Notes under the pieces: model-generated
What the model was told of the DNA's origin: nothing
Databases searched by the model: none
What the model saw: only the letters and a program-made list of their open reading frames with translations
Shown here: positions 16,971 through 51,800 of the stretch, one piece after another
Position numbering within the stretch: position 1 is the stretch's first letter
Layout: each line of letters opens with the position of its first letter
Position numbers and translations under genes: made by a program
NCBI GenBank assembly: GCA_947561395.2
Contig: OX387186.1
Location: 40,009,220-40,073,219, forward strand
Length of the DNA: 64,000 bases
Direction: 5' to 3'
Origin: Buxus sempervirens
Taxonomy: Eukaryota; Streptophyta; Magnoliopsida; Buxales; Buxaceae

Positions 16971-19900
16971 CTGTTCGATCAAAAGATACATGAACAAGTT
17001 TCAAAAGATATGTGAACAAGTAACAACCACACCTTGATTGCAAATATGAGAACTATAAACACTACTAATAATAATGATATTAAGAACTTTGATGGGTGGA
17101 CTTTTGAAAGGAATTTTCAAAGTACGCTTACTTTATCATGGATCAAGTAGTCCACATAATTTCTAAACCATTTATAGAATTTTCTGATAGTTTATCAAAC
17201 AGAAAACCCTTAGTTCCTCATATCACTTTTGCTCTTAAGATTATCAGCTATGCACAAAGAAAATAAAAGACAAATTAAAAAGCATCATCAGAAGATTAAA
17301 AATTTTAAAAAGATCCAACTCAAATTAAACAAAGGTAAAGGAAAAGAAATTTCTAATTGATGTCAATTATTGAAACATTATAAAGAGATACTAGCTACAG
17401 TTCAATGGCAAAAACATGATAAAATGTTTTTCTCCTGTTTTATAAAAGAAATCCCCATCCAGGGAAATGAAATAAACCATTACAAATTGTCCAAATCTTA
17501 GGTCAATTGCACCTAGATCAAAGGACCTATCTTCACATCACTGAGTAAATCACAAAATTCATTAATTGGATAACATTTTAGCTATTAAATTCAAAAATCA
17601 ATTCTTCATTACTTGAAATGGTTGAAACAGCAACTTTGATCTGTGGCAGACCTTTCAGCTGGTCCAATACCTGGGAATTCCAAACTACTAAGTACTAATC
17701 AAGGGTCCACATAAAAGGATTTCCCTTTGGGTCTAGGAAAGAACTGCAGACTCTCTCCAGACAGTCCTCAAGCTCTTATTTGGTCTTATATCTAATATAA
17801 AGATAAATAATCACTTTGCATGTGATTTACTCCAATATAAATATAAGGATTTCACCTTAATTTTCTTAAGCTGGTCCACAACTTCATTTGGAGTTCTATC
17901 TAGATAAGGATTTCACATTGCCTCGGATAAATATAAAATATAAGGATGTCATTATCTTCTTTTAAATCAAGGATTTTTAAGGAAAGAATAAGACTTATGA
18001 CACCATCTCACTTGGTTTCTTGATTTCTATAGCAGTATAAATGCACAGATCTAGAAATGACAAGGTGATAACTGAAATCCTTGCTTTACACTAATAAATG
18101 CTATATGTTGAATACACAAAATCAATACTCTGTTCGCTTACCTGTAGTGCACTTATTATGATGTCTAAAAATTTTCAAGGTCATGTTGAACACTCATCAA
18201 CAACGTAAATAGATATTAAGAAAAAGGTCTTAAATTTATGCCACATTACAAGTCAAAATCCAATATTGGCCCACCCAGGAGCTCTAATTTCACTGGCACC
18301 CCAGATTTTTTACTCATTTAGTGTATATCTGACATTCATCTTATGCCTGTTCAATTTTTTATAATACAGTGTGTTCGTATGCACTAGAAATGGCATTAGA
18401 AGTTTTCTTTACCAGCGGACCTCTGTTCTTTTGCCTTTTCTCAGTAATAATGATAATGATAATGATGATGATGATGATAACAACAACAACAATAAGCCTC
18501 ACCTAACTAATTGGGCTCAGAAAGATGCATCCTGTTCCTTCATCCCAATTTGTCACCATACTTTCAATTTGATTATAATTATCTAAATCCATTTTTATTG
18601 ACTATCCAAGATTCCTATCAACCTCTTAGATTCTTCAATGAGTATCCCCTTATACCTTCTCATAGTTGCCTCCACGGGTCTCTTTTTTATATGCCCCATC
18701 CTAACCCGTTTTCCTTTTTCTTATTTTCTATTTAGACAACAGATATACACTCTGGGAGGGCCCATTTCTCACCTTATCTTCCCTAATGTTTTAACAAATT
18801 CATCTTAACATCCACATCTCGACGATGTTCATCCTATACATTTTAACTCTAGGCAGAATGATATCCACAACCAAATTTCATAAACAGCAGCAACAAATAT
18901 ACGTTGAGCAGTTGAGAATTCATGAAAAAATCGTTAATTAATCAGGAATACACAGGTGTGACACCGATTTTCAGTTATGCACTTATGGCCAATGGTAAAT
19001 ATGGCTAACTATTGAGTTATTAGACAGAATAAGACTAGAGATAATAATGATGGTCAACATCTTATGATCATTCTGTTAGGCAAAGGAAATTGTCAGATAG
19101 ATCAATCATAGCAAAGGAAAGCTTACCTCCTCAGCAAACAATTCTTCTAATACATCATTTATTTGCTTATCTTCTGCAACCATGGCCAATGCCATACTAA
19201 CAAGCTCATTTGATAATACATAATCACTAATCTTTGACATGGATAACAGGTTTTTGGTCCGTGGATCCAGAATTTCACTGATTATCACTGATTTATCTGA
19301 AGCCTGCTGCATTTCTCCAATCCAAGAACCCTGTGAGAAGCTTCCTCTGTGAACATGATTGACCATTGCATCTCTGTAAGGGAGACGTTTAGCCTGAAAG
19401 GGAAAAAAAGGAGAGAGAAATAGATACATACTTAGAATTCAAGGTAATAAAAATTCAAAAATACAAGATAAATAATTAATTGATTGCAGTTAAGCGTTGA
19501 AGAAACAAAAGAACAGAAAATCCTGGATGTTTGACATGATTCTTTTAATGTTAAACCACAAAAATTAAATTGCAAGATAGATAAAAGACAACAATAGCTA
19601 TACAAATCATGTTCTCCCAACCCAATCTGTCAAGAACTACATCTTTTGTTAGAAAACGTGTATCAAATTCTTCTGGACGAAGGCCATCCAAGCTATTTTT
19701 GGTATTTTGCTCATCTTCTTAGATTCATGAGACTTAAAGCTTTCATTTTACCCATGTAATGTCTGCCAAAATAGAGAAAGAAGAAGAATGTCTATCTTAT
19801 TTCTCCACTGTTGCTAGAATATTGGATGGGTTGTTGTGTAGTTGTCACTGTAGTTACCATAGGTTGTTGTGTAGTTGTCCCCCACAACCACAAAAAACAA

Positions 19901-25900: not shown

Positions 25901-28900
25901 TTTTGAATTTAATAAGGAAAGCAATTACACCTCAGAAATATAATTATAATATTTGGATCCATATCATATTGTGGAAACGTAAAGTTACATGAAACAAGGT
26001 TTTATGTTCCGATGCCACTGGGCATTTCATCCAGGGCACGAAATGAAATTTCAGTGGCATGCTGCCAAAATTTCAACAATTCAAGGAAAAAATGAAATCG
26101 CTTGAATCAAGAACCACTAAAACTCTCCTATCTAATACTGTTTTGCCAAGATCATCGTTATAATTTAGTTGTATTTAATTTTTAAAATAATTATTTTTTA
26201 GAATTTTTTCCAACAGGATCAATGATGGTCTGAACTCAATCAATACCATTGGTATAAGAGTCAACTTGAGATAGGCCTCAAGTGATTCAGAGGGCAATAC
26301 GGATGTTTTCAAAATGGTCTTTCATCTGCACAGACACATTCTATGCTAATTTTAGTAATTATTATTTAGATTATATTATTAGTTTATCAAAGAAAACGAG
26401 ATTTGCTTAGAGCTTTAATTTATTATGTATATCACGATAATTTGAGAGCTTCTATGTGTTTACATTTATCCAAGATACATCCCCCTAAATAAGTTATTGG
26501 TATTCACCGAATTTTAAAATATTGGATGGATTATGAAACCTTTTATAGTTTATAGATGAATCTAGATGTGAAAATATAAAGCTAAACCCAAGAGAAGCGA
26601 AGGACAGGTAAATTAAAGCATGAAATTCATGCAATAGTCATCTTCAATCAAAAGCAATTAGGTTAGACAACTTAGACTACCTCAATGCTGGGAACAAACT
26701 TCTGCAAGATAAAAAGCCAAAAAAAGAAAATGGTAGAAAACTGGGAATAACAGACATTAAAGATTAGGGTCAATTTAAGTAGCCAATTTACACTAGTGCC
26801 CTAGCGTTCTGACAAAGAAAAAAAAAAACTTTGCTGTTCTGTGATCTTCAATTAAAAGTAATGAGGAATTTAGAATTCCACAATACCTGAAGTAAACCAT
26901 TGCAAGAGGAAAAGCCAAAACAATAGTAGGAGACCAGGGAGAACATATTAAAGAGCACGGACAATATACATAGCAATCTACACAAGTTCCAAACAGTTAC
27001 GAGTTATGATTAAAAGCAAACTTTCTAGTACCTGAATATCACGAATCAACAGTAATGTAGCAAGAGATCTCGAATCGGCTTGCATTGCTGAATCTTCCAC
27101 TGATTCGTCAGCCAAAATTAAAATCTGTATAAATTAGAAACTGCATCACTTCCTGTATAATCTTGTAATAAAGAAACATAAAATTTCCAGAAACATCAGC
27201 CCGAAATACCACATTACAACCCAAGGGAGTAAAAATCACTGAAAGCAGTTTCCTGATATATGTCATTTATATTCCCATGTAAGGAAAATAACTTGCCATT
27301 ACTAATGGAATAGTATGAACCAGCCAAGCATGCCAATGATGGGGACAAAACATTTGATGAGTCCTATAAGGGAGATCTTATGGTTCAAAGAACTAAGCAG
27401 ATCCACTAATGTTGCTCCTTACTGCCAGGCCCATTGGAAATTTTGACGGTCAAAAAAAAAAAAGCAAGGTTGACATGTCACTCACTCAGTCACATTGATC
27501 ATTGACTGATGATCAATCCCAAATGCTGAATAGAAGGGGGGAAGGGAGGGAGGGAGGGAGGGAGGGGGGGAAGGTGTTGTTTTGTTACCACAATACGCAA
27601 AGTCCAAATGGAATACACCGTTATAACAACTAGACTACAAACCTTTGCCTTAATGTTACCACAATATACAAAGAAGCATACTCACTGAATCAAAAGACTC
27701 CAAGGGAAGGCTTTCCAGATGTCGCCGTATAACAGCATTTCCTTCACGATTGACAAGTGATATATTCACCAACCGACTGATGTCAAGACCACCATCAATA
27801 AGCTTCCTTTCTCTCTCCTTTTCAGGAACATCATTGAACATCCACAGCTCAGAACCAGGTGCTAAGAAGGCATCTAATACCTGAAAGAATTATAACGGAG
27901 AAAATTATTACTGGAACTTAAACATGTTTTTTTTTTTATCGGTAAATAATATGATATATGTATTGAAGTAAAAAGAAGGAAATGTCTTGGTACACAGAAA
28001 GTGTACCAAAGACTACAAGAAAGAATAAGAGTGAAGACTAGGATATCCTAAACTCCATCCTGTCCACCCCCTAATCTGGGAATGCTTCCCCCAATAAGAA
28101 CTCTTGAAATGGTACATTAACCATCAGATTATCAATAGAAGCCCATCCAAACATCATGAGCAGAATTTTTTTTTGTAGTGCTTCTCCACTAATTACTTGA
28201 TCTTCAAAAGTCCTACGGTTTCTTTCAGCCCAAATCCCCCATGCTATAGCTGCTGGAGCTATATTCCATAGTAAAGCTCTCCTGGTTTTTCCTTTTCTGT
28301 GCCCCCACGATTGTAAGACCATGGCAAAATTCTCAGGTTGAACCCACACTAATCCAAACAAAGCCATAAATCTGTCCCAAATAGTCCTTGCCTCCCTACA
28401 ATGAACCAGAAGGTACTGGAACTTAAACATGTTATGGGAACAAAACAGATATCCCGGAAGATATCTTGAGTTATCAGAAGTCTGGATTGCATCAAGACTC
28501 AGAATTGAAAATTGAAGATGTGATGGACATATGGAAACATTGTTGAAATGTCTACCACCACGTTTGACATACACCCCCAAACTGCTTTTGAAGCAGTGAG
28601 TGTAAGAATGATTGTAGTTTCCTTGTAGCATTACCATAACCATATCTTCCATATCTCTCCGCCAACCACAGAAAAGTATCCTTTCAGGAGACTTTGGAAC
28701 AATAAAGTCTTTGGGTAGATTTCCTCTCCAAACCTGCAGAATTGAGGGCAAAAAGAAGGATTAGGGGCTTCAGTGGAAAGCACTTACCACAATCATATCA
28801 TCAATGTCCCGTCTCCATCCACAAAGTAGAATCTTCTGTGGCTTTCTTGCAGGCCGGACTATGTGTATAAATGGTGCTTCTTTGACCTGAACGATCAAAG

Positions 28901-31900: not shown

Positions 31901-34900
31901 TCATTATTTCCGCACTCTGATATATTTAATGGAATTGTTTCAAGTCTGGATTAGTTGTTTTGGGCCATTATACTAACGAACCAGATTTGGGTTTATGTTT
32001 TTAAATGAACCTGGATCCGGAGCGTTACAACCTGAGTCGGAAAAAAATGTGAAGGGTAGAGACCCTATAGAATCAGAAGAATACCATATAGATATTTCAT
32101 GTCTCTTTTGTGTATATAACTCAAAAGGCCAGTGTATTTAATCCTTAGTTTCAACAACAGGAGGAAGTGACTAATTAAAAATCTGAACAATGTGTACATT
32201 GACATAATACATAGATGCTAGCGAACATCATAGATAGCAAAATTCACAAAACAGTGTTAACTATTGTGCTTATAAAAAATACTAATGCTGACATCGTAAC
32301 TTTCAATCAATACAAGTTCAAGTACTTCCTAAGGGTGTCCTGATCAAACATCTAGACCAAGTGCAAGAAATATATTCCTAACCACATAAACTAACTCCTC
32401 TACAACGTTTTCCTTACTTTTCTTGTGTCTAAAGAATGCTGGACTTAGGCAAGTCACATTTTTAAATTTCCAACAATTCAATTACCATAAATCCACTAAT
32501 ATTGATGATATGTAAACTTCACTACAGAAAGAAGCTAGATGAAATTCATAGTAGATCTTGAATCGTTATGTTCCAAAGAAAGAGAAAGCACCATAGGTAA
32601 TGCTGTTGGTGCATATGTATCGTCGTCCTCTGCAATTACAAGGACTTCATCTCCTTCTTGCATAACATAGGAGTCATCAGGATTCAAAATAATCTTTCCA
32701 CCATAAGCTGCAGCTTTCACCCCACAAGGAATAGCATCAGGAAAGCTTAGTAATACATCTTCAAAATGCATGCCATCCAACTGTGGCCATCTTTTGATAT
32801 AGAACTCACAGTTTTCAAACCCAAGGATATCCTCCCAGATCTGCCATGGTCCATTCATAAAATACAAGAGATATATGTTATAAATAATAGAACACTACAC
32901 CGTGCACAAAATGATGATACTTAGCCGTAAATAACAATTAACTTATATATAAATTAGTAAAACAAATAAGATATGACCAATAAAACTTATATTGCATATC
33001 ATAACAAAGTTATAGAAATCAAGTCAACTGAAACTGACCTGTGCAAGGCCTGGCTGCCGAGCGCACTGAATCATCAAACGACCAATTACATCATGAGCCA
33101 CAACAGTTTCAACAAGATCTCCACCAACAAGTTTCACAAGGACCTCATTGTCGAGATCACTCAGTTCCACCACTATGTGTCCTCTCAGCCCTTCTTTGAC
33201 ACCAGTTAAACTCAAAACTGTTCTCAATGCCCGAGCATCACTCTGTACCAAATCACAGAAGAGTTTAGAGTAAAGTTCTGTTAAACATGAACTACATTGA
33301 TGTTGTCACTAAACTAGACCTGGTCAGCATTTCCATCTTCAGCTAGGACAACCACTGCACGGGCCTTTGAAACAGATACCTGCAGAATTATGATGCAGTC
33401 AGTGTACTATGAGAGTAGTATACAGAGTCTACGAAGAGTCTTAGCATCAGAAGTGACAATCATCCATGTTAAATGTAACAAACTTCCATGATCCTGTTTC
33501 ATAATTCCACTAGTAATAAGACAGGAGACAGAAGTTTGAATTACCACTAAATCAACTAGATCAAAAGATAGAGCTGATCATTACAGATATTTAAGAAAAT
33601 ATTTGAGTGTACGAAAATATTTGCAAAAAATAAAAAGTTCATTGAGTTTCCCCACAAAAAGAAAAGGAAAATGACCACAAAAACAAAAGAAATGAAAAGA
33701 GAATTTTTGAGTGCCCCCGAAACTTTGAATTACTGCGAAACCAACTGGTCAAAGATGTAGCCAACCAACAGAGATTTAAGAAAATATGGCAGAGTAAAAT
33801 GACATTCACAAAAAATAAACATGTTAATTGAGCTCCCCACAAGAAGAAAAGTGATATTAAAAAAATATATATTGATTTCATAAATTTTGAAAAGAAAAGA
33901 AAGGTGATAAAAGATATCGATGCATACCTTTTTCAGGTCAGCCAGAATCAGAGGGCTTCCACTTCTGCAAATGACAGATGTCCCCCTGAAATCAAACTCC
34001 ATCTTAGCAATGTCAAGTTCCATCTCTTCTTTGTCACGCTCAGCCATCACTACAATAGTGCCTCCCCCCAAACTCTCATTGGCTATTGCTAGTTGATTCA
34101 ACAGTGATCCCTGAATTCACATAGTTTCAATGAGGGAATGAAGTTTCAAGTTTTCAACCGTAGCCAAGCGTTTCATATCGCCTTATGGTGTCCACTATCA
34201 AGAGAATTTTGATTAGATTAATTATATTAAAGTTTTCTTTCTCTATTGTCTATTATTTTTTGATAAATTCTTTATATATTGTTGTCAATCACTCCTTGCA
34301 TCGTCATCAGCGGGACTCAAAAATAGTTTTCTACATGAAGACTTTAAGTAAGAAGCATACATGGGTTACCTCTTGATTTTTATCCCTAACAAAATAAAGA
34401 AACAGTTTGAAAGTAGCAGTGTAGCAAAAGGCCGACTGCTGGGTCAATCAATATTCCAGATCTTAGTTTGACGTTTAGTGCAGTGATCTCTCAAACTTAT
34501 TTCTAGAGGAGCTCCACAAGTCATTTAATTTTCTAAAAGCAAGCCAAAATACTAAACTTTTGTAGTTAATGTAGGATATGCTGTAACCGCAAGAAATACT
34601 GAGCAATAAATCTCTTGCATTAAAGAGGTGGTGAAATCCTAATGCTTCTGTTGCCGAAGTCCTATCCTGGACTCCTTTTGGTATATCATGGAACCTTCCC
34701 TTTAGGAGAGACCTTCGTCCTCCCGAAGTAGAAGAAATTGCTGTGATGTTAAATACTCTTAAGGAGGTGGTGATTGACCCTCTATGTTATGATAAGGTTA
34801 CTTGGTCCCTATCTCCTTCTGGCTATTACTCTTGCAAATCTTTTTTCAGTTATATAAGCCAGAATCCTTCATACACTAGTGTGCCTTTCCATGTGTCTAG

Positions 34901-37900
34901 GCTATGGAAGCCCAAGGTACCTCTTAAGATCAAAGCTTTTCTGTGGACAGCCCTTTTGTATAAAATTAACACCGCTGATCAAATCCAGAAAAGATGGAAA
35001 ATGAATGCCCTGTCCCCGCAGGTGTGCTTTATGTGTATGGAAGCAGAGGAGAGCATTGATCATTTGTTTGTTCAGTGCCAGTTTGCAAGAGCCGTGTGGA
35101 TGCAGATGTTACATATGATTGAGGTGTCATGGGTTCCACCTGTGACATTTCAGGATTGCTTTGTTCAATGGAAAATGGGGGGATTGGGGAGAAGAGGCCA
35201 TACCATGTATAGAGCAGTGTTTCATGCTGTTGTGTGGTCTATATGGTTGGAGTGAAATGGAAGGATCTTCCGAGATAGTTGGTCGACGGTGGACCAGGTG
35301 ATAGGGAGTATTCAGATAGCAGTGGCGTCATGGGTTTCAGTTCTTCCAGAATTTATGGATATTTCACTTTTAGATATAGTCAGGGAGTGGCATAGATAGT
35401 GCTACTCCACATCTACTGTAGAGGGGAGTTCGGTAAGAGGGATGGGTTCACACTTACCATGGGATGTTGGGTAGTTCTGGTGGAGGGTGGTCGTCCTTGG
35501 CACATTATTGAACGTCTTGTTTCGTAATGAGCCAAGATTCATTGTGGATATGAGCATTGATAGAGGGTGGTAATCATTTCTTGGGGGGCTTTTTGTGGTT
35601 GGTGTATAGGAGGTTTTTGGTTGGTTTTTGGTCATGTTGACATCCGCACGGATTTGTGTGCGTTGTACAGTTCTCTTTCTTTACTCACATATATATATAT
35701 ATAGATATATACATTACTAATCAAAAATAAATAAATCTCTTGCATTAAAGGGTATTTGAGGCACATTCTTTTCACTAAAGATTTTTTTCTTTGAAGTAGA
35801 TTGAAAAAAGGAATTTTTATCTCTCAATGCAAATATATAGCCAATATCTTGGATAAAACTTTTATACTGGAAGCAAGACCATCTACTTCTATTAAAGTGA
35901 ACAATATCTTCAAGATCAATGGTTTGATCGTCTTAATGATCAAATGCATTACCAGAAACCTGTTAGCAAGCTTATCTATTTCACCATACTCACTGGAGAC
36001 ATTGTGAATCGTGCTATTAAATTTAGTAATTTTCATTATAAGCATGGATAAAGGATGAGGTTGCGTCAGGTTAGCAGCCGGTGTAAAACTCTTGCTAAAT
36101 CTAAACATGACATGAATCTTGAATTAGAATCCCATTTACATGCTAGGTCATTGCTCATTTTAAGTGACGCGCTGTGACGGAGTCCAGTTGCAATGAGAAA
36201 TGAGCAAGAGTTGAGGGCGTCATCCGCAAACAACGCGCTGCAATGCCACCAGGTTGCAGTGAAAAGTGAGCAAGGGTTCTCGTGTCAAGTTAGATTAACA
36301 CAAGTAAAGAAGGTAGTCCAAGAGAGTAGGATTTGCTTATGTACTTGGAATATAAGAACCTTAACAGGGAAGAATCTAGAGTTAGAAGATACTATAAAGA
36401 AGAGGATAAATATAATGTGTTTACAAGAAACTAAATGAGTATAAGCTTTGACATACAAGGAAAGGTAATAATCGAAATGGGGTAAGAATAATGGTAGATA
36501 AAAATATGAAATATAATTTTGTTAGCGTTAAGAGAATTAATGATAGAATAACCTTGCTTAAATTAGTCATAGGTCAAGAAGTTGTAAATATTATTAGTGC
36601 CTATGCACCTCAAGTAGGCTTAGATGAAAGCATTTTTTTTTTTTGATAATTGATGAGATGAGATTTCATTAAGAAAAGAAAGGAAAGAAATACAGAGAGA
36701 AAGAAAAACAAGAAAAAGGAGCCACAAACCATGGGCCCCCCAAAAGAACTAAAAACAAACTAACTCTCCATACAATAAGCCATCTCTCCAAAGACCAGAA
36801 AACTACTAGTCGCTCCAAACTTAGCTAATCTGTCTGCAACACCATTGGCGGCTCTTGGTACATGTTTGAATGAGACATTCAAACCCTGCACCAAAGAGCG
36901 CGCCAATCTTATCAGTTCCAAATATCTCCATGGACCAGAATCCTCTCTCGTCATCCATCCCAAAATATTGGCGGCGTCCCCCTCAATTACAACCCCTTGA
37001 AGCCCCAAAGAATGAATGTAGTGAATCCCTGTGATAAGTGCCAATAACTCCGCCCGAGTAGAATCCGCTAGTCCGATAGGGCCACGATAAGCAGAAATGA
37101 CCTGACCCATGTGGTCCCTAAAGACTCCTCCAACACCTGCTAATCCTGGATTTCCCAGAGAGCTTCCATCAAAATTCAGCTTAATGAACCCTTCAGGAGG
37201 TGGTGCCCAAGCACAAATAGGTACAACCACTACAGGGGAAGAAAAACAAACCGTAGCCCAACTCCTCATCATATCATTACCGGAAATGTCATGGAACTCA
37301 AGGTACCTGTTAGCCCATAATACAACCGATAATCTAATAGCTTCAACTACTGACCATCTAGGGGATTTTTTATCCTCAAAGATTCTTCTATTTCGTTCCT
37401 TCCAGATAAACCACAAAACTGCATGAAATAGTAATTTGTATAGAATCTTTCCCCTCTTTCCAATGCCTGGGAATCTCCACTGATCAAGCAAGTCAATGAC
37501 CTTCTCTAGCATAGCCCAAAAAACACCAATCTCCCCAATAAAATAACTCCAGATGAAAGCATTAAAAGACTTTCTTGGGAAGAAATAGATGGGTTGATAC
37601 AAGACATATCTAAAAGTGAAAGGATATTTATAGGAGGGATTTAAATAGTCATGTAGGTGATGAGAGTGATGGTTATAATAGAATTCATGGAAGAAGAGAC
37701 TTTAGTCAAAGGAACAAAATGAGAAGATCGGTCTTTGAGTTCGCTGTAGCATATGACCTTGCTTTAGCAAATACCTTTTTCAAAGAGAATTGAACATTTG
37801 GTGACTTTTAAAAGTAGATCAAATTGGAGTCAAATTGACTTTTTCTTCTTCTTAAAAGGACTAAACTAGCTACTTGTAGAGATTGTAAGGTTATTCCAGG

Positions 37901-40900: not shown

Positions 40901-43900
40901 AAGACAAAATAAGAAATGAAGACATTCTAAAGTGGTTAGGCATAGCATGCATTAAGGATAAAATGGAGGAGAGTAGGTTAAGCTAATTTGGTCACATAAA
41001 GCAAAGACCTAGAGATGCACCTATAAGAAGATATGAAATTATGCACATCGAAGGGCCTAAGCGAGTAAGAAGTTGACCTAAAAAGACATGGATGGAATAT
41101 ATAAAACAAGACTGACAAAAACGTAGATTAACTGAAGATATGATTTTAAAATGAAATGGAGAAACAAGATTCGTGTCACCGACCCCACTTTGGTGGGAAC
41201 TAGCTTATGATGATATGATGTCAGTATAATCATTCCTTGGATGCCACTTGCTTTATTTTCAAGTACTTAAATCTATCACCAGAACAAGTGTCTGTACCAA
41301 AATTATGGTCATTTATCTATGGTAGTTTAGGTGATGCTGCTGAGGCTGGCGTTTATAATGATCAGAGTTCAACCAGTGGTTATTGCACCTTTGTTGGGGA
41401 AAATTTAGTAATCTATAGGAACAACAAACATGGACTGGTTTCTAATTCAAGTTCAGAGGTGGAAAGCCATGACATGTCTCAAACTACTTGTGGATTCCTT
41501 TGGCTTTGTTAATTTCTTTGAATGATGTAAGTTTACCCTACAATACCAATGATACTTCATTTTGACAATCAAGCTACGGTTCATATCATGTGAATTTTGT
41601 ACTCCAAGAAAGGACTAACATATTCAGCTAAATTATTACTTTGTGAGAAAAGGTTAGCCTACAGTTATATATTTATTTATTTTTTGATCGGTACGGTTAG
41701 TGTACAGTTATAGCCAGACCTTTTGTCAAATCCAAGAATACATCCACAGATATCTTAACTAAGGCTATGAGACACATAAGAACTTAGACAGTTAGACTAC
41801 CTTGTTGAGCATGTTAGGCACACATGGCATTCTTGCTCCAGCTTGCGGCCAAGTGCGAAGAAATATGATATTTCTATGCACTTGCTAGTGGGCTTTCTAC
41901 CTCAAACTTTGTTCACCAAGGGATTTGAACTCAGATCTATTAGTTTTCCAAAATCAGGCCTTACCAGCTGGGCAAAATACCAATTGGTTAAGTTTCAATT
42001 TACTATAACAAGTCCTAATTTTTAGGTTAACCTATACATTTTATCTTCTTTGGTGCGAATGATGATCATTCTATTTACACACCATGTCACTTCATAACAC
42101 CTAGGCTTGCTACTTACTCCTATTTTGCTCTAGTTCAGGTTTGTAATATGTTCAGGAAGAATTAACTTGAAGCAACTTCCTCAACCAAAAAGGAGGGCAA
42201 CAGAATCAAAAGGGAGCTGCATGAACACTGATATATGGGGATCATAAGAACACCCATGGTCAAGAAAATGAGAACTAACTTGGGACAGCTCACAATCTGT
42301 ATCAGATGGTTGGAACATTAAGCCTCTGTTTCTTTTGTTTGCTTTCTGCAAGGATCAATATTTTTCATTTCTGCATTGTATTGGCCCAAAGCTACAGTGT
42401 ATCTAGGGTTTTGAAGCCCCTCTTCCAAGAAAACCATGATAAACCAGATAATAAAATTTCATGTTACGATCAGTTCACAAGTCATAATGAAGTTTTACAA
42501 TTTGTTTCTCTAATCAAATCAATGATGCAAAGATGGGGAAATTTTATAAGAAAATAAAAATCTTACCAACTTATCACTCCACCCTAGGATAAGAGTATGG
42601 CCTTTCTCTACTACCTCACTTCTTCCCTTCCTCAATGAGTCAAACTTCTCTGATATTGCATCAGAAACAAGTCCAAGCATCATTGCAAAAATAAGCATCC
42701 CACCAAAACTTATGGAAACTGAAACTAGCCTGGGACCAATTCCCTCAGAATTTGCATGATTGCCTGAATCAGCTATATAAGTCCAAGATAACCAAAGGGA
42801 ATCTGCCAAGTTATCATCAGTAACACCAAAGAGTGCCAGTCCACCAAGAAAAATAAGTAGTAGAGTTGAAATTAGCAATGCCAATGACTTTGCATATGGG
42901 TAGACTGATAAAGACACATCAATCCAATATGCTAGCTGCTTGTTTAGAGAAACTTCTTCTGATGCATTGTCTGACAATTTCCTCGACTTAGAGACATAAT
43001 CAATGTACTTCAAAATGAGGAGAGGTATGGATAGAATTGTGACAGAGACAATCAAAGCGGAATGTTTCAAGCTCTTATTAGGAAGATGATCACTCTCCTG
43101 CAATATGGAATTGGCAATATCCATAGGCTCCAACAAACTGCACGCTTGTAATCTCGCATTGAGCTTGGAGAGCTGGACCTGCAAGCACAAATTTGACTTT
43201 GTCTATAAATTTTTGGTAGTATGAAAACCATTGGATACAGCATCTGTACGATCAACTCATCTAAGCCAGACCAGACCAGGAAACTGAAAGAATCCAGTTC
43301 TATAGGAAGAAAATAACAAAAATCATAACAGAGAACCATATATAACTCTCTGATTCAATTACTATCCATTCAGGCCGTTTGAGTTATAGCATCAATCAGA
43401 TAGTTCAACTGGATGTATGCCCACTGAAATTTATAGAAACGGATTGGTTCTACCAGATTGAAGTGCCATACAACAAGAACACACATCTATGGGTCCTTTT
43501 GGGTTCAGTGATTTCTATATGAGCAGCAAATAGAAGGAAATAAGTCACATGGCTTATCAGCAGCAAACTCAGAAATGTGTCAATCCATTTAAACAAAGCA
43601 TGAAAAGGATCCTATTTTTTTCTAATTTCTTAATGAAACTAAGCGGAAAGCCAAAAAACAAATTTTATAAAATGGAGAAAAGATTACAGATACAAAGGTC
43701 AACTTACCTGTAAATCATTAACCTGATTGTGCAATGAGAAGTTTTTGTGTAGAAGAGAAGCGAAAGCTATAATCACAATCTGCAATTATAAACAATACAA
43801 CTATTAACATCAGGCTTTTTTGATTGCATAAGACGACCGAAATAGTTCAAACAAAAATCGAGCAAGTCAACAAAATTCCAAGAAAAGTAACTCACCGACG

Positions 43901-44327
43901 CCATAAAAGCAATCTTCCATCGGATCTTCAATCTAAAACTCAGGAAACCCAGAAGTCTCTCTCCAGCCGACGTTTTTTTCTCCGAAACATCAGATTTCTC
44001 TGGCTTTTCGTCCGAAGCAACCTCGACAGGATTGCGCATCTCCGTTTCTTCATTCCGGCGAGCAAAATCGATCCTCCGACGAATTCCGGCATACTTTATG
44101 TCGTCCTTGTGAGGTACTCGGCCAGACGACGAGAAACTCTGATTCAATGACGGTGGCTTCAGAGATCTCGAACCTGAAAGGTAGTGTTTCGTAATCTTAG
44201 GGTTTGTGGAAAATCTTCGAGGAGTTTTGACAGATTTAGAGGAAGGAGTTGAGTGTATGAAGGAAGGAGACGGGAAGAACCAGTCCCTGTGGCCGGAAGG
44301 GAACGGCTCGGAATCAGAAGAGGACAT
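16752..44327 (-). CDS. CASTOR: CASTOR nuclear-envelope ion channel (12 coding exons)
   Basis: This is a CASTOR/POLLUX-family cation channel. The family acts in the nuclear envelope and is needed for nuclear calcium spiking in the common symbiosis pathway. Coding exons on the minus strand are 43896-44327, 43708-43779, 42567-43178, 33928-34110, 33320-33379, 33039-33242, 32592-32840, 28635-28733 (or 28788-28886), 27686-27880, 27032-27124, 19127-19393 and 16752-16970. They sum to 2685 nt, or 894 residues plus stop, and all introns are phase 0. Four membrane segments (about 137-155, 207-227, 261-287, 319-343) surround the pore filter ADSGNHA (304-310). Two RCK-like regions follow (GWSDKL near 367-372 and CGWRRD near 626-631). 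The start at 44327 ([12 protein letters not shown]) fits the family; an in-frame ATG five codons upstream (44342) is the alternative. No disruption was seen. CASTOR rather than POLLUX is favoured by the N-terminus ([10 protein letters not shown]) and the overall match. Confidence 0.95.
18443..18495. repeat. Trinucleotide microsatellite in CASTOR intron 11
   Basis: AATGAT, GATGAT and AACAAC repeats in succession within the intron. Confidence 0.85.
19127..19393 (-). CDS. CASTOR: CASTOR exon 11 (734-822)
   Basis: Encodes [20 protein letters not shown], then [20 protein letters not shown] and the helix ending [12 protein letters not shown]. Acceptor TTTCAG, donor GTAAGC. Confidence 0.95.
19850..24430 (-). 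pseudogene. Degraded Copia retrotransposon in CASTOR intron 10
   Basis: The order on the minus strand is gag start ([10 protein letters not shown] near 24170), a gag block [16 protein letters not shown] near 23470, a zinc-knuckle-like CIHCC with [10 protein letters not shown] near 23110-23220, integrase pieces ([20 protein letters not shown] near 22130, then PSSVLN and [12 protein letters not shown]), reverse transcriptase ([20 protein letters not shown] near 21080-21120), and the RNase H tail near 19950-20050. Each block is broken by stops and frame changes. LTRs were not identified. It is an old, inactive copy inserted in the same orientation as CASTOR. Confidence 0.8.
25603..25857. repeat. 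Tandem duplication, 2 x about 128 bp, in CASTOR intron 10
   Basis: The block starting GGAAATAATAAATGTA at 25603 recurs from 25731 and includes GAAATAGTTCTTGGAGTC, TTTTATCTAGAAGATATG and ATTGATATGCCAAAA in the same order. The copies differ by scattered substitutions and small indels. Confidence 0.85.
27032..27124 (-). CDS. CASTOR: CASTOR exon 10, 31 codons (703-733)
   Basis: Encodes [20 protein letters not shown] and [11 protein letters not shown]. Acceptor TATACAG, donor GTACTA. Found by protein continuity. The 7.6 kb intron 10 downstream contains a Copia relic. Confidence 0.92.
27536..27570 (+). repeat. GGGA-rich tract, G-quadruplex potential
   Basis: Consecutive GGGA units framed by G5 and G7 runs lie in CASTOR intron 9 on the non-template side of the minus-strand transcript. 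The pre-mRNA would carry the C/T-rich complement. Confidence 0.8.
27686..27880 (-). CDS. CASTOR: CASTOR exon 9 (638-702)
   Basis: Encodes [32 protein letters not shown] and [20 protein letters not shown], the second RCK-like region. Acceptor CTTTCAG, donor GTGAGT. Confidence 0.95.
27929..28413 (-). mobile_element. 5'-truncated L1-type LINE in CASTOR intron 8
   Basis: A 20-bp direct repeat (27909-27928 and 28414-28433, containing GGAACTTAAACATG) flanks the element, and an A run on the minus strand abuts the left copy. The body encodes a zinc-binding reverse-transcriptase tail ([15 protein letters not shown] near 28345-28410, then [16 protein letters not shown] near 28195-28250). The perfect duplication points to a fairly recent insertion, about 200 bp downstream of exon 8a. 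Confidence 0.9.
28635..28733 (-). CDS. CASTOR: CASTOR exon 8a, alternative 33-codon exon
   Basis: Encodes [18 protein letters not shown] followed by [15 protein letters not shown], the form that matches the well-known legume CASTOR sequence. It is 99 nt, phase 0, with acceptor TTCTGCAG and donor GTAATG. Only 54 bp lies between the 8b donor and this acceptor, shorter than normal plant introns, so the two are unlikely to be spliced to each other. Confidence 0.93.
28788..28886 (-). CDS. CASTOR: CASTOR exon 8b, alternative 33-codon exon
   Basis: This exon comes first in transcription order. It encodes [18 protein letters not shown] followed by [15 protein letters not shown]. It is exactly 99 nt, phase 0 at both ends, with acceptor TCGTTCAG and a consensus donor GTAAGT. 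It aligns without gaps to exon 8a with 12 of 33 identical residues, centred on CGWRRD. The DIDDMI wording resembles POLLUX proteins. It is open and intact, so I read it as a functional alternative to 8a rather than debris. Confidence 0.8.
28887..29530. other. CASTOR intron 7, proximal part
   Basis: AT-rich intron sequence between exon 8b and the solo LTR. No feature is recognised. Confidence 0.5.
29531..32029 (+). mobile_element. 2.5 kb solo LTR in CASTOR intron 7
   Basis: It starts TGTAAAATCCCAG and ends GGAGCGTTACA, giving TGTAA...TTACA inverted ends. Both sides carry the 5-bp duplication ACCTG (29526-29530 and 32030-32034). There is no internal coding region. Length and ends fit a chromovirus (Tekay/Del-like) solo LTR left by recombination. 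A GC-richer segment with CGCTCGAGCG palindromes lies at about 30470-30650. Orientation is inferred from the resemblance of the left end to TGTAACACCCC-type LTR starts. Confidence 0.8.
32592..32840 (-). CDS. CASTOR: CASTOR exon 7 (522-604)
   Basis: Encodes [20 protein letters not shown] to the acidic [17 protein letters not shown] linker ending ALPM. The donor ATG/GTGCTT is weak. That may matter because the next splice chooses between two alternative exons. The 3.7 kb intron that follows holds a solo LTR. Confidence 0.93.
33039..33242 (-). CDS. CASTOR: CASTOR exon 6 (454-521)
   Basis: Encodes [20 protein letters not shown] through [20 protein letters not shown], a strongly conserved part of the first RCK-like region. 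A 77-bp intron separates it from exon 5. Acceptor GGTACAG, donor GTCAGT. Confidence 0.95.
33320..33379 (-). CDS. CASTOR: CASTOR exon 5, 20 codons (434-453)
   Basis: A micro-exon encoding [20 protein letters not shown], the strand-loop segment of the RCK-like fold. Acceptor TCTGCAG and donor GTCTAG flank it. It is missed by simple frame scans. Confidence 0.9.
33928..34110 (-). CDS. CASTOR: CASTOR exon 4: first RCK-like region (373-433)
   Basis: Encodes [20 protein letters not shown], then the acidic helix of a Rossmann-like fold and [19 protein letters not shown]. Acceptor AATTCAG, donor GTATGC. The 8.4 kb intron 3 before it is filled with transposons. Confidence 0.95.
34626..35729 (+). mobile_element. 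5'-truncated L1-type LINE in CASTOR intron 3
   Basis: An exact 21-bp duplication flanks it (34605-34625 and 35730-35750, containing AATCTCTTGCATTAAAG). The body encodes the zinc-binding tail of an L1 ORF2 ([47 protein letters not shown]) from about 34743 to 35255, then a stop. It is inserted antisense to CASTOR. Confidence 0.9.
35760..36130 (+). pseudogene. Copia pol fragment, part 1 (split by an RTE LINE)
   Basis: [20 protein letters not shown], followed in another frame by a [11 protein letters not shown] piece, matches the Copia reverse-transcriptase connection region on the plus strand. It breaks off where the RTE LINE begins; the matching RNase H part lies at 41225-41810. Confidence 0.6.
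36635..37550 (-). mobile_element. L1 3' fragment with RNase H, nested in the RTE
   Basis: A 13-bp duplication AGATGAAAGCATT (36622-36634 and 37551-37563) flanks it, and an A run on the minus strand lies at the left end. The open frame encodes the end of an L1 ORF2 with an RNase H domain ([56 protein letters not shown]); D-E-D-D residues look present. Confidence 0.9.
38302..39046. mobile_element. hAT MITE, 745 bp, nested in the RTE
   Basis: An exact 8-bp duplication CTAAGAAG flanks it (38294-38301 and 39047-39054). The ends are CAGTGTCATTAAAGGTGC and, in reverse complement, CAATGGTATAAAATTGCC. GCCTAGGCG phrases lie next to both ends. It has no coding capacity. Confidence 0.9.
39103..39478. 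mobile_element. hAT MITE, 376 bp, nested in the RTE
   Basis: An exact 8-bp duplication ATGATAAG flanks it (39095-39102 and 39479-39486). The ends are CAACGTTTGACATTTCGC and, in reverse complement, CAAGGATAAAATTTTCCC. The body is made of inverted AAATTTC/GAAATTT phrases. Confidence 0.9.
41225..41810 (+). pseudogene. Copia RNase H fragment, part 2
   Basis: Shows a [10 protein letters not shown] piece and then [20 protein letters not shown] and [20 protein letters not shown], the Copia RNase H signature, with a DILTKA-like tail near 41750. Same orientation as the fragment at 35760, from which the RTE LINE seems to have split it. Confidence 0.75.
42567..43178 (-). CDS. CASTOR: CASTOR exon 3: pore module (residues 169-372)
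   Basis: The largest exon holds membrane segments 2 to 4, the pore helix and the selectivity filter ADSGNHA at about 304-310, followed by [20 protein letters not shown], and ends at GWSDKL, the start of the first RCK-like fold. The filter keeps Ser; legume DMI1/POLLUX proteins are known for an Ala at this place. The acceptor is TTGCAG and the donor GTAAGA. Confidence 0.95.
43708..43779 (-). CDS. CASTOR: CASTOR exon 2 (residues 145-168)
   Basis: A 24-codon exon finishing membrane segment 1 ([11 protein letters not shown]) and starting a short coiled region (LHNQVNDLQ). The acceptor is ATTGCAG and the donor GTAAGT. It is too small to show as a long open frame and was found by protein continuity. 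Confidence 0.9.
43896..44327 (-). CDS. CASTOR: CASTOR exon 1 (residues 1-144)
   Basis: Encodes the Ser/Pro/Arg-rich N-terminal tail ([10 protein letters not shown], then basic stretches RRRIDFARR) and the first residues of membrane segment 1 (KIAFMAS). The donor is TCG followed by GTGAGT. The tail is the least conserved part of the family and faces away from the RCK ring. Confidence 0.93.
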
Positions 44328-44513: not shown

Positions 44514-47500
44514 TTTTTTTTTGTATGGAGAAACAACAGGCATTTTATTAATTATGAATAACACGTACATAATTTAGCCCCCTTGCTTCGTCAAAAAGTT
44601 CAGTAAATACAAAGGGGGTGGCTTAGAAATCCAGGTATATAGATATTGGTCTATAGCAAAGTTAGCTAAGAGATCAGCTATAATATTCCCTTCCCTATAC
44701 GTATGAACAATTTGTACATTGCAACATGATTCCAGAATCCTATGAATTTGATGGACCACCGGCAAAATGAACCAAGGAGGTTGTGGGATTGTTTTGTTGA
44801 GAATGTTGACCATGAGTAGTGAATCACCTTCAAGTATTATGTTGGTAAAACCTCTTGCTTTGGCCAGTAATGCTGCTTGGAGTGCTGCCAATGCCTCTGC
44901 ATGAAGGGCGCTCTTTGGTGAACATGAAGCTGCCACTGCTGCTAAAAATCCTCCCTCACTGTTCCTTGCAATAACCCCAATACCTGCTCCTCCATTAGAA
45001 CCCCTCAACGCTCCATCAAAGTTAAGTTTAACGACATTAGTTGGTGGATGTTTCCAGGTGACTGAGATGCAACTGGTATTGGATATCTCCTGTTTATCTT
45101 GCTGTTGAATGGTTGTTAATTCAGTAGAGACCCTTCTGAACTGCCGTATTACCTGAAAAACATCAGGTTGTTCATCTTCAAAGAGTACGATTTCTGTGTG
45201 ACCACAAGGTCCATCCGAAAATTGCAGCATGAGATAATAATAATATAATATATTGAGATCAATGCTAACACTTGAATTTAACTTTACAATATTTTGGAAC
45301 CAAGAGAGAAGATGAAGAACCAAATGATTGAGAACCATCAACAGTGTGGAGCCATGCTGCTCTGGAGAAAGGACAGGTAAGCCAAATATGGTCGACCGTT
45401 TCAAGACCAGAATTACATAAAACACAACTTCCATCTCCTTTTTTGAGTCTATGCCAGATGAGATCACCTGTAGGAAGCTTACCATGTAGACTTTTCTTCG
45501 AGGAGGAGAGTTGAGGTGCCATACCTTTAACCAAACTTTGTCTTCATTAGATACAAGACTTCCCAATAGCAAGCGATAGGCTGAGGAGACCAAGAACACT
45601 CCTGACGCTGTGAAGCTCCAAATCTGCTTATCTTTTTGGAGTGAAGGAGATATTGAAGTGGAAATAATTTGGGAAACAGTGGAGCTAGGCCAAAGAGTAA
45701 AGCAAAGTAGTATTCCATTCTCTAGTTGATTGAATTATTAACTAACTTACCTTTGACAGTGGGCAATCATTGCCTTCTCCATGGGGTTGTTGCAGTCGGC
45801 TGCCATTCATAAGCCAATTATCAGTAAAAATTCCAACAGAACACAGAATCTCTATTGGCTAGGAGCCAAGATAGGCCCATCTGCAGGTGGTTCTTTAAAG
45901 ACTGAAGCTGTTTCCAGCCGTAAGAATGAGATTGCTTGACTTTAGCATCCAAAAATGAAGAATCTGGATAATACAGATTTTTCATAATTGAAGTCCAAAG
46001 ACTAGGTTGGAGCATTTGTAGTTTCCAGGCAGCTTTTAACAGAAGTGCTTTATTCATGATTTCAGGTCTTTTGATATTAAGTCCTCCGTTTCTCCATGGA
46101 AGAGTGATTTGATCCCAGAAAATGGTCATCAAGGCTTTCTTGTTGTCTCCCTGTCTCCAAAAAAATGATCGTGCCATTTGATCTAACCTGGATAAAACAG
46201 AGTTAGGCAAGAGGTAACATGACATAAAGTGATTTGCCTGTGCATTGATAACAGATTGAATCAAGGTCACCCTGCCCACTAGAGATAACAAAAGGGACTT
46301 CCATCCGGCTAGTCTTTTTGAAACTCTATCAATAAGGACTTGACAATCTTTAACCCGAGGTTTATGATGAATAACAGGAACCCCCAGGTATTTATCACAA
46401 TTGTTTACAATTTTAACATTAAACATATGTCGGATCAAATGCCTCATCTGCCTAGGGGTATTAAGGCTGAATCTGATTGAAGATTTCTGAAGATTAAGTT
46501 CTTGGCCAGACTCAGCACAGTACTTGTGCAATAGCCGAATGATACAATGAGCTTCTCGCTCCACAGAATTACCATAAATTATGACATCATCTGCAAACAT
46601 CAAATGAGTTAAAGAAGGGGTCCTCCTAGATAATTTAATGCCATGATATCTACCATCTAGTTCAAGTCTAGTGATGGCAAGACTTAAAACTTGTTGACAC
46701 AATATAAAAAGATACGAAGATAAAGGATCTCCCTGTCTAAGACCTCCCTGTGCCTTAAAATTTCCCACTAGAACTCCATTAAGTAAGATACTGTATGAGA
46801 CTGTCTGAACACAATTCATAATGAGCCTAGAGCTGAATTCATTGAATCCATATGCCTTCGAGAAGTCCAGTTTTAAGGCATAGGACTCCTTATTCTTATT
46901 GTTCTTCTTCACTTTTTTCTTCGATGCCTTTTTCTTCTTATTGAAGGAGTGGCAAACTTCATGATGTAGCATGATGTTATCCCAATGTGTCGATTTGGCA
47001 TGAATGCTGCCTGATTAGGGGATATGATCTTGTCAAGCAGAGGCCTAATTCTATTTACTAGAAGTTTTGATATAACTATATAAACCACATTGCATAGACT
47101 TATGGGCCTGAATTGGCTCAAAGTTCTAGGGTGTTCAACCTTGGGTATCAAAGCTATGAAGGTATGGTTAAATTTTTCAGGCATAGTGCCTGATTCAAAA
47201 AAGCTTTGAACTGACTTTGTGACATCCATACCAATTATGTCCCAAAAATGTTGGAAAAAAGCAGCAGGACACCCATAAGGCCCTGAGGCTTTAAAGGGGG
47301 CCATCTTCTTAATAACAGTCCATATTTCAGTTTGAGAGTGTACCTGGCAGAGAATGGTATTATGTACCTCATTAAGTGAGCAGGAATTAGCCTTGTGAGT
47401 TTGAAGGAAGTCCATCTCTGCTGCTCCCTGAAATTAGATTCAAAAAAATTAACCACATAGGATTGTAAATCATTATAATCTGTAATTTCATAATCATTCG

Positions 47501-48866: not shown

Positions 48867-51800
48867 ATGGCGGGCAATCTCATACGCTATACTTCTACAG
48901 TCGAAGTTTTCGACGGCTCGATATCTGTAGGTCCCTTCCTTTGTGCCAGAAATACTCCTTTGGAAGCCCCGACTGAGAAAGTGAGGGGTCCTTTACTTTT
49001 CATTGACGACCGTAGTCTCAATCTACCTTCTCGAAAAAAATTTCGAAGTTGGCTGACCGCCTATCCTGAATGGGTGACCTAGGTTGACAGCATGAAGGAG
49101 CGTTTCGCCGTTATTTGGCGTAAGACTGGTATTTATGACATGATTAACTTTTCCTGTCATTCTATTCCTTTGAATCGCGACCTTCTCTGCGCCATGAGTT
49201 TATTCTGGAATGTTCAGACTAATACCTTCAATTTCCCTTGTGGGCCGATGACTCCCACTGTCATGGATGTCTGCTTTATTACTGGTTTCTTCGCGACTGG
49301 TCATGAGATCTGGGTTGGTATGGCAGATCTTAAGGATTACCAGCATTTACCTCCGATGGACGTAGGTGACAAGGGAAAAGAGGTAGAAAAGAAAAGAAAG
49401 CAACCCCCAACGAAGAAGAAAAAAGCTTCTAGGAAGGCGGGATCTCTTCGGCAGAAAGGGATTGTTTTGTTAGAGAACGAACCTCCACCGTCAGAGAGCA
49501 AATCTCCACCGATTTCGATCCGTACCTCTTATCGGTCCTACATCAAGGACTGTGCCCAATTCCGACCTCCAGCCTATGAAGATGAAGTGGAACACTTCTA
49601 CTTTCTCCTTTATTTCTTCTGTAATTTCGTATTCTGTTCCAAGGCTCAAGCAGTTACCAAAGAGTATTATTCACTGGTGAAGCTGATTCTGGGTGAGTAT
49701 GAAGTTGCCCTCGCTCCTTATTTTTTATCGGTTTTGTACCGTTCACTTCAAGAGTTTGTTCATGGCACCCTTCAAAATCCTGGGGGGCCATTGTGGTTTC
49801 TTCAATTTTGGGCTTATCACTACTTTCCATCCCAGTTTTATGCTCGGGTGCCGATTCCTTCCAATGTGCCTTCTGAGTTTGGTGGCTATGCCTGTTTGGC
49901 TGTTACTTCTGTTGTTCTCTCTTTTCCTGAGTGTTTCCGTTTTCTTTTTTGGTCTTCATCATTTCCCCACTCCTCCTTTTGGAGTTTCCGCAAATGCTCC
50001 CGGTTTCCTTTCTATGGTTGATGTCATAACTGATGAGCAGCATCTTATCTGGGCCAGTTTTCTGATTGCTCGAAATTTGAATTATGCTGTGAAGTCAATC
50101 AACAAGAAACCGGGGTTTGAGGTATACTTGCCAAATTGTGTAAGCCAGCAATTTCGATGTGAACAGAGGATCCCCTTACTTGATGCGGATGGTCTGTTTA
50201 CTATTGATACCAGTTCTATTGATCGGCCGTCTGTCACTGTAGCCGAAGCTGCCCAAATGGAAGATAATTATAGGGTCTTTGCTATTGATTTTCGTCTTCG
50301 CTTTCTTCCTTGTCATCAAAACTGTCGTTCTGATTTCCATGTTTGGTGGAATTCTTTGTGGACTAAAATCTGCTGCCATTCGGCCGATTATTATCTCGAA
50401 AGATTGGGTCTGCTTGAATCTTTGGCTGCGTCGATCCAAGAAGGTATATTCTTATCTTCCTTGTTTCTGATCCACTTGATACTAATTCAGTTATTCTGTC
50501 ACTAGGTGAAGTACCGCCTCTAGCTTTGGAGGCTGGTCCGTTTGAGTCTTTGTCTGCACCGATCCAAGAAGGTATATTCTCTACTTCCTTGTTTTCGATT
50601 CATGTGACATTAATTCAGCTATTAGGTCACCAGGTGAAGTACCGTCTCTAGCTTTGGAGACTTATACTTCCCCTTCAAGGGAATTGGCCGAGGATGAGGC
50701 TTTGTCAGCAGAATGCCCTGTTTTGATTGTTCCAGATGAAGATCCCGATGATGTCCCATTGCGACGGCGTTCTCAGAAGGTACTGAATCTTCATTGACCA
50801 TTCTTCTTCTTTTTATTTTTTCTTTTGACACTTCATTCTTCTAGGTTTCGAGTTCTTCGGGTCCAATTGCTCGTTCTTCCAATGTCATGGAATCTTCTTC
50901 GGATCCAGTTGTTGATCCTACGTCTGTTTTTGACCCGGCCGACTTCGTTGGTCCTGTCGAAACACTGGATTCTCTTGGTAGTGTCATCGGAGAAGCTCCT
51001 TTAGCACTTCCTGAAGGTCAGGAGCCTTTATCTATTCGAGAGGATTCTTCAGAAAGAAGTTCTTCTCCAGAATTACCTCCTGGGTATGAACAGAGCGCTG
51101 CCCCTCCGGTAGTTGAGACTACAACGTCTACTGCTTCCTTCCATCAGGACTAACATTCCTCTGGGTCCTTCCGCCTTGACCGATATTCCCCCAGGTTCTT
51201 CTGCTATAGTAGCGGAAGGTGATATTGATCGGCCGAAGCAAACACTCGTTGAATTGGGGAGCGCCAGTTCATCTCTTGTTCCGGGACTTTCTCCTGCTGC
51301 GGGATTACTCTCTGATGATGGGCATGGCCAATTGGACGTTATGTTGAATGATGTCTGTTCCAATCTTCCGTCGGATAGTTCATCTGAGCCCTCATCTTCA
51401 TTTCCAACAAGTATCCGATCGGAGATTATCCGCCTCCTCACTCCGGGCATAGTTGGCATTTCAGAAGAAACTCTTACCCGTGTGATGGCATTGGCAGCGA
51501 AGCTTCGGGATCTCTCTTCTGTATCTCTTGACGTAAAATTGGTGTTCTCTCAACTTACTCTCCTTTACTCCTATAAAGTTGTTTTTGACCATCTTTCGGC
51601 CAAGCTATATGAAATGAGTAATATGGCCGATTCTGTTGATGGCCGATATCAACTTTTGCAACAGTTAAGGAATGAGCGCGAGATTTGTCATCATCAGTAT
51701 ATTGAAACGGTCTACCGTACGAACATCATAGATGATAATATTACGGAGGTTGACCGTCAGATTGCGGAGTTACAGTCTAAGAGATCTGATCTTGCAAATC

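Follow-up and report, generated by a model that had tools for sequence, protein, structure and literature searches.

The CASTOR channel contributes to the nuclear calcium signalling that comes before symbiosis with fungi and with nitrogen-fixing bacteria, and legumes are the family used as the model of such symbiosis. To our knowledge, deeply conserved pairs of mutually exclusive exons are rare in plants. In the CASTOR protein of Lotus japonicus, an RCK1 domain (residues 320–552) is joined by a linker (553–580) to an RCK2 domain (581–853); at the Ca(I) site, which locks the two N-lobes, R589 and R590 stack with H463 and D442 pairs with R590 (PMC6697748). The D442A mutation produces a leaky channel and no nodules, and the opening of CASTOR is suspected by the authors of the structure to involve factors beyond Ca2+ (PMC6697748). 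The text of that paper contains no occurrence of "isoform", "splic" or "exon".

The exclusive exons of alpha-tropomyosin, as cited in PMC6692369, are kept from joining by a short distance between the 5' splice site and the branch site; about 50 nt between the two are needed for efficient assembly in animal systems, and with a distance of 35 nt no assembly takes place on one animal pre-mRNA. In vertebrates, exons 4a and 4b of OGDH stem from an old exon duplication, are separated by a short, restricted intron with branch points 25–41 nt from the 5' splice site, and set the Ca2+ sensitivity of the enzyme (PMC7969005). Mutually exclusive MADS-box exons are also reported for Picea abies (PMC6243048), another plant case although not a channel.

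Here we describe two exons, 8b and 8a, of a CASTOR gene located in the window, that is, the whole 64-kb stretch of DNA that was analysed. The pair resembles that of alpha-tropomyosin in the short distance from 5' splice site to branch site, although alpha-tropomyosin is an animal gene whose protein is unrelated to CASTOR. With OGDH it shares the old duplication, the short intervening intron, the position of the branch point (predicted at 26 nt in CASTOR) and a Ca2+-regulated product, whereas OGDH is an animal enzyme, its intervening intron measures 118–131 nt in birds and mammals against 54 nt in CASTOR, and its Ca2+ motif lies inside one of the exons, while in CASTOR the Ca2+ ligands are in other exons and it is the linker that changes. 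Lotus CASTOR and Medicago DMI1 belong to the same protein family, and their Ca2+-site residues are kept here; the solved Lotus chains carry 8a, whereas the gene in the window has both 8a and 8b. We consider, with a probability of roughly 0.85, that 8b and 8a are an ancient, tandemly duplicated and mutually exclusive pair of CASTOR exons, presumably kept apart by steric exclusion, whose exchange would alter the gating ring. The strongest new points, in our opinion, are the evolutionary depth of the pair, the conserved geometry of its spacer and branch point, and its apparent absence in legumes.

The CASTOR gene and its exon pair

The CASTOR gene is complete, spans 44327 to 16752 of the minus strand and has 12 coding positions (Table 1); every exon length is a multiple of three, every intron is in phase 0, and the protein has 894 residues with either 8a or 8b. 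Two tandem RCK domains accompany a Castor_Pollux domain, as in CASTOR channels: Pfam matched Castor_Poll_mid and Slo-like_RCK in the 8b isoform (PF06241, E 1.5e-44; PF22614, E 3e-9), and 544 residues of the 8a isoform were aligned to Lotus CASTOR (6o6j). The filter encoded by exon 3 is that of a CASTOR channel, for which the motif ADS(A)GNHA has been described (PMC6697748). The closest database proteins among the best 120 of 1574 matches are those of Davidia and Nyssa (82%), Liquidambar (81%) and Cornus (80–81%), which hints at a core eudicot.

Table 1. Coding exons of the CASTOR gene and the spacer within its exon pair, in window coordinates
Feature	Position	Strand	Remarks
CASTOR exon 1	43896..44327	(-)	start placed at second ATG of its open frame
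CASTOR exon 2	43708..43779	(-)	
CASTOR exon 3	42567..43178	(-)	pore, filter ADSGNHA
CASTOR exon 4	33928..34110	(-)	RCK1
CASTOR exon 5	33320..33379	(-)	
CASTOR exon 6	33039..33242	(-)	equivalents of D442, D444, H463
CASTOR exon 7	32592..32840	(-)	E493, E552-D554 equivalents; upstream partner of 8a and 8b
Exon 8b, alternative, 33 codons	28788..28886	(-)	
Spacer, 8b donor to 8a acceptor, 54 nt	28734..28787	(-)	
Exon 8a, canonical, 33 codons	28635..28733	(-)	
CASTOR exon 9	27686..27880	(-)	downstream partner of 8a and 8b
CASTOR exon 10	27032..27124	(-)	
CASTOR exon 11	19127..19393	(-)	
CASTOR exon 12, including stop codon	16752..16970	(-)	

Several mobile-element remains surround these exons. The 8.5-kb intron between exons 3 and 4 contains retrotransposon remnants matched by Pfam as zf-RVT and RVT_3 (34635..35255, plus strand, and 36760..37701, minus strand), and an open stretch at 28071..28421 (minus), in the intron just downstream of 8a and without a Pfam match, resembles the tail of a LINE-type reverse transcriptase. 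Upstream of CASTOR lies an RVT_1 reverse transcriptase fragment (45821..47014, minus; Pfam). Two open frames at 49083..50021 and 52979..53887, both on the plus strand, match the plant mobile domain (PMD), and LTR-retrotransposon-like polyprotein pieces at 57229..59565 and 55992..57080 (both minus) include reverse transcriptase and RNase H by Pfam, together with a frame that we take to be integrase-like.

The gapless alignment of the 174-residue stretch encoded by exons 7, 8a and 9 to Lotus CASTOR (6o7c, 6o6j) and to Medicago DMI1 (7vm8) identifies 8a as the canonical exon, and the slot of the solved Lotus CASTOR is of the 8a type. The preliminary description had proposed an adjacent pair of 99-nt, phase-0 exons that are free of stops, have good splice sites and lie 54 nt apart, and this anatomy is confirmed, with its coordinates: both exons are flanked by AG acceptors and GT donors. 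It is likewise correct that 8b fills the 8a slot without gaps, with 12 of 33 residues (48 of 99 nt) identical, and that the N-terminal 15 residues differ almost wholly, a single V being common to both. Equal length, equal phase and tandem homology are the features expected of a mutually exclusive exon pair. The window contains 79 open AG-99nt-GT blocks (48 on the minus and 31 on the plus strand, 8a and 8b included), among which 8b reaches a score of 66 in comparison with 8a, the runner-up 5. When all stop-free 33-mers in the six frames of the window are considered, the highest score against either exon, apart from the pair itself, is 30.

The description of 8b as POLLUX-like holds for its DIDDMI stretch but not for the slot as a whole, over which DMI1 has a median of 18/33 identities to 8b against 19/33 to 8a. 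An origin of 8b from POLLUX was rejected, as DMI1, the one POLLUX-type sequence compared, is equally far from both exons over the slot.

Exon choice and age of the duplication

The use of the two exons in other plants was classified from database proteins. Searching with the 8b slot matched 255 proteins, of which the best 120 comprised 29 with 8b alone and 91 with both exons. A search with the whole 8a isoform, in which the search words were taken from the first 500 residues and hence from outside the slot (residues 605–637), gave among the best 120 of 1574 matches 71 proteins with 8a only, 30 with 8b only and 19 with both, a ranking that slightly favours 8a. Altogether, the 273 proteins from the searches divide into 133 with 8a only, 46 with 8b only and 94 with both. 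Exon 8b precedes 8a in all 92 proteins in which both blocks were scored, and also in two with a shortened 8a. One-exon forms of each kind thus occur in relatives, mostly as annotated proteins, and many of the 8b-only proteins are named in their sources as CASTOR isoform X2, X3 or X4.

Twelve pairs of proteins are identical elsewhere and differ within the slot. Eleven are full-length and come from ten species: Melia, Lactuca, Mangifera, Gossypium hirsutum, Gossypium mustelinum, Hibiscus trionum, Alnus, Craigia, Theobroma and Cornus, the last represented twice. The twelfth involves P0094, a protein of 723 residues from a 2667-bp contig, all of whose 9-mers are found in the lettuce 8b isoform; the contig would represent a spliced transcript, since it spans exons 3 to 12. 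These isoform pairs, together with the position that the slot occupies in Lotus CASTOR, bear out the earlier prediction of two CASTOR isoforms with different gating-ring linkers. We did not find the exon pair described in the openly licensed literature on CASTOR splice variants and exclusive exons, including passages of PMC9114929, PMC13299084 and PMC12155092; the first of these states that its supplementary tables list variants arising by splicing of DMI-type genes in several crops. As far as these searches go, the pair is present in public annotation, apparently without a description in the literature.

In a tree of slot peptides, rooted with a single DMI1 peptide, all 74 8b sequences form one clade (support 1.0) and all 122 8a sequences another (support 0.948); the tree was built from 75 distinct 8b and 124 distinct 8a peptides after three proteins in which 8a is shortened or overlaps had been set aside. 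Slot identity is at least 16/33 within 8a and at least 18/33 within 8b, and ranges from 10 to 18, with a median of 13, between the two (121 8a and 70 8b peptides). Copies from Ginkgo and Cryptomeria fall inside the 8a clade and inside the 8b clade. The two clades, each with gymnosperms, argue for one early duplication, and a single event before gymnosperms and flowering plants diverged, probably before the radiation of seed plants, is suggested by this comparison of peptides. Over 249 residues of RCK1, the Ginkgo and Cryptomeria proteins score slightly nearer to DMI1 than to Lotus CASTOR (difference –14), and they may be other than strict CASTOR orthologues. No fern, lycophyte or moss names occur among the matches listed. 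The gene model of P0001 (Xanthoceras) has two identical 8b blocks followed by 8a, possibly a recent extra duplication or an assembly artefact.

The exon 8b could conceivably be a poison exon or a cassette remnant, spliced at a low level and without function in the protein. The apparent loss of 8b in legumes would fit such a remnant, as would the replacement of W by M, in the wheat group, within the GWRRD of 8b, a motif that hardly varies elsewhere; the resulting GMRRD is present in five proteins (P0109–P0112, P0115) and may reflect decay or a change of function. We nevertheless regard a functionless remnant as very improbable: wherever a protein contains 8b, the block is open and its length does not vary, and its second half is conserved no less than that of 8a, with a mean majority share of 0.98 versus 0.93, over a taxonomic span from Ginkgo to daisies. 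The open frame, the constant length and the conserved second half point to selection on the protein encoded by 8b.

Spacer geometry and proteins with both exons

Plant introns generally need roughly 70 nt, and the next shortest intron of the gene after the 54-nt spacer, between exons 5 and 6, has 77 nt. The only (C/T)T(A/G)A(C/T) site of the spacer is CTAAT, with its A 26 nt downstream of the 8b donor and 27 nt upstream of the 8a acceptor; the distance from the 5' splice site to this putative branch point, identified by sequence match, is below the approximately 50 nt required for efficient assembly in animal systems. Retention of the spacer in this gene would introduce an in-frame stop after five codons. 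Five database proteins read through the spacer, which is open in all of them; it amounts to exactly 18 codons (54 nt) in Populus, Cucurbita, Phragmites and Eragrostis and to 22 codons in Papaver. The four 18-codon spacers start with VS and end with Q, as expected of GTAAGT...CAG, and all five are compatible with an initial GTAAGT and with CTAAY at offset 21–22, which places the branch A 24–25 nt after the 5' splice site. Shuffled spacer peptides reached a mean of 0.37 of five, and none of 2000 shuffles reached five, although the shuffles ignore shared ancestry.

On the basis of this geometry, exon 7 would be spliced either to 8b or to 8a, and each of these to exon 9, while splicing of 8b to 8a would be blocked because the branch point of the spacer, about 25 nt from the 8b donor, is too close for the U1 and U2 particles to be accommodated together. 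Exclusion might instead depend on competing RNA structures or on a repressor protein, mechanisms that PMC6071210 describes for other exclusive exons. Where just two exons flank a spacer of less than spliceable length, such a mechanism is unnecessary, and grasses and eudicots are alike in spacer length and branch position, so that we consider it unlikely in comparison with simple steric exclusion.

The claim that the 54-nt gap sterically prevents joining is supported by the conservation of the spacer and branch position, but it is qualified by the proteins that contain both exons. In 83 of these 94 the exons are joined seamlessly; many are automatic gene models, but the seamless forms include the named isoforms Solanum stenotomum X4, Nicotiana attenuata X5, N. 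sylvestris X7, Cucumis melo X2 and Salvia divinorum X1. Papaver X2, also a named isoform, joins both exons with a shortened 8a, and the spacer is kept in the named isoforms Populus X5, Cucurbita pepo X1 and Phragmites X2. The seamless named isoforms may come from genes with a longer spacer or from faulty gene models, unless an intron of 54 nt can in fact be removed. In Persea P0036, Urochloa P0087 and Papaver P0071, 8a begins 13–14 codons late after 8b, which would lengthen the intron to about 95–105 nt, as if an inner acceptor were used that avoids the short intron.

It could be argued from these proteins, 94 of the 273, among which six joined forms bear isoform names, that both exons are normally included together, making the linker region 33 residues longer, and that exclusive use is the exception; as 8a and 8b are both in phase 0, joining them keeps the frame. 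However, an intron of 54 nt whose branch point would lie some 25 nt from the donor falls short of published limits, pairs of one-exon proteins that differ in the slot only are found in ten species, and a doubled slot would duplicate the first RCK2 strand and GWRRD. Moreover, among the joined models five retain the spacer and three trim 8a by 13–14 codons instead of splicing out 54 nt. Regular double inclusion therefore seems to us highly unlikely. In some plants the two exons may genuinely be included together or the spacer retained, or such forms may be gene-model artefacts; the CASTOR 8b/8a pair is real and old and probably largely exclusive, and it may not be strictly exclusive everywhere.

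The slot in the channel and in legume proteins

When Lotus numbering is counted from the construct start, K312, the slot corresponds to residues 565–597, and the swap covers the second half of the RCK1–RCK2 linker (565–580) together with the first RCK2 strand and turn (581–597). D442, D444, H463, E493, D553, D554, R589 and R590 are all present, in the 8a and 8b forms alike. Of the Ca2+-site and latch residues, eleven that lie outside the slot, between A342 and D554, were compared with Lotus; all agree and all are encoded in other exons, and within the slot R589, R590 and D591 are kept in both 8a and 8b. The two exon families differ almost without exception at Lotus positions 568 (G in 121/124 8a versus A in 70/75 8b), 581 (E in 124/124 versus Q in 74/75) and 593 (E in 121/124 versus D in 74/75). 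A difference in linker charge was rejected, the median net charge of 565–580 being 2 in both families. The AlphaFold model of the 8b isoform has a mean pLDDT of 34, too poor for use.

Since the Ca2+-site residues are in other exons and the latch is kept in both isoforms, the swap is likely to affect the linker or a binding surface rather than the Ca2+ ligands. It would keep the R589/R590 latch, replace the second half of the linker and alter G568, E581 and E593; the 8b version would thereby change the linker or a regulator surface of the gating ring and, presumably, the calcium response. We infer this effect on the channel, like the mechanism of exclusion, from sequence. A conserved swap in the RCK1–RCK2 linker, beside a latch whose partner mutation D442A abolishes nodulation, would offer a handle on CASTOR gating.

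A search with the soluble domain of Lotus CASTOR returned, among the best 120 of 2142 proteins, 33 that by name belong to 24 legume species, one of them the solved Lotus construct; 8b was found in none of these, all 33 having 8a only, including named isoforms from soybean, wild soybean, Abrus, Cajanus, cowpea and Prosopis. No Medicago proteins were among the matches listed for this query. Of the other 87 proteins, 25 carry 8b, each together with 8a (Fisher p 2.2e-4 versus legumes). An isoform with 8b alone scores about 37 bits lower in the slot region, and most legume proteins score 1082–1188, the lowest of the 120 scoring 1044; most legume isoforms with 8b alone would thus have been listed. 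Legume names are also absent from the best 120 of 255 matches to the 8b slot. It is likely, judging from these clustered database proteins, that 8b was lost in legumes, and its apparent absence would explain why work on legumes did not meet the exon pair. Alnus and Morella, which are actinorhizal, keep 8b, so that the loss is not simply tied to nodulation. Tuning of the symbiotic calcium signal by isoform choice, as proposed in the preliminary description, would be a prediction, and the legume proteins matched, which come from the model family of this symbiosis, have no 8b.

A broader scenario can be proposed, to which we would give somewhat less than even odds: steric splicing provided two versions of the CASTOR gating ring before the diversification of seed plants, legumes discarded 8b, and the structure and physiology of the Lotus channel represent half of the repertoire, the loss perhaps accompanying the division of labour between CASTOR and POLLUX/DMI1 in legumes.

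Other in-frame variants were observed near the Ca2+ sites in legume isoforms. P0261 (Abrus) and P0269 (Glycine soja) miss 23–24 residues inside exon 7, right before the Ca2+-binding EDDD, and P0248 (Glycine max) misses the whole of exon 5.
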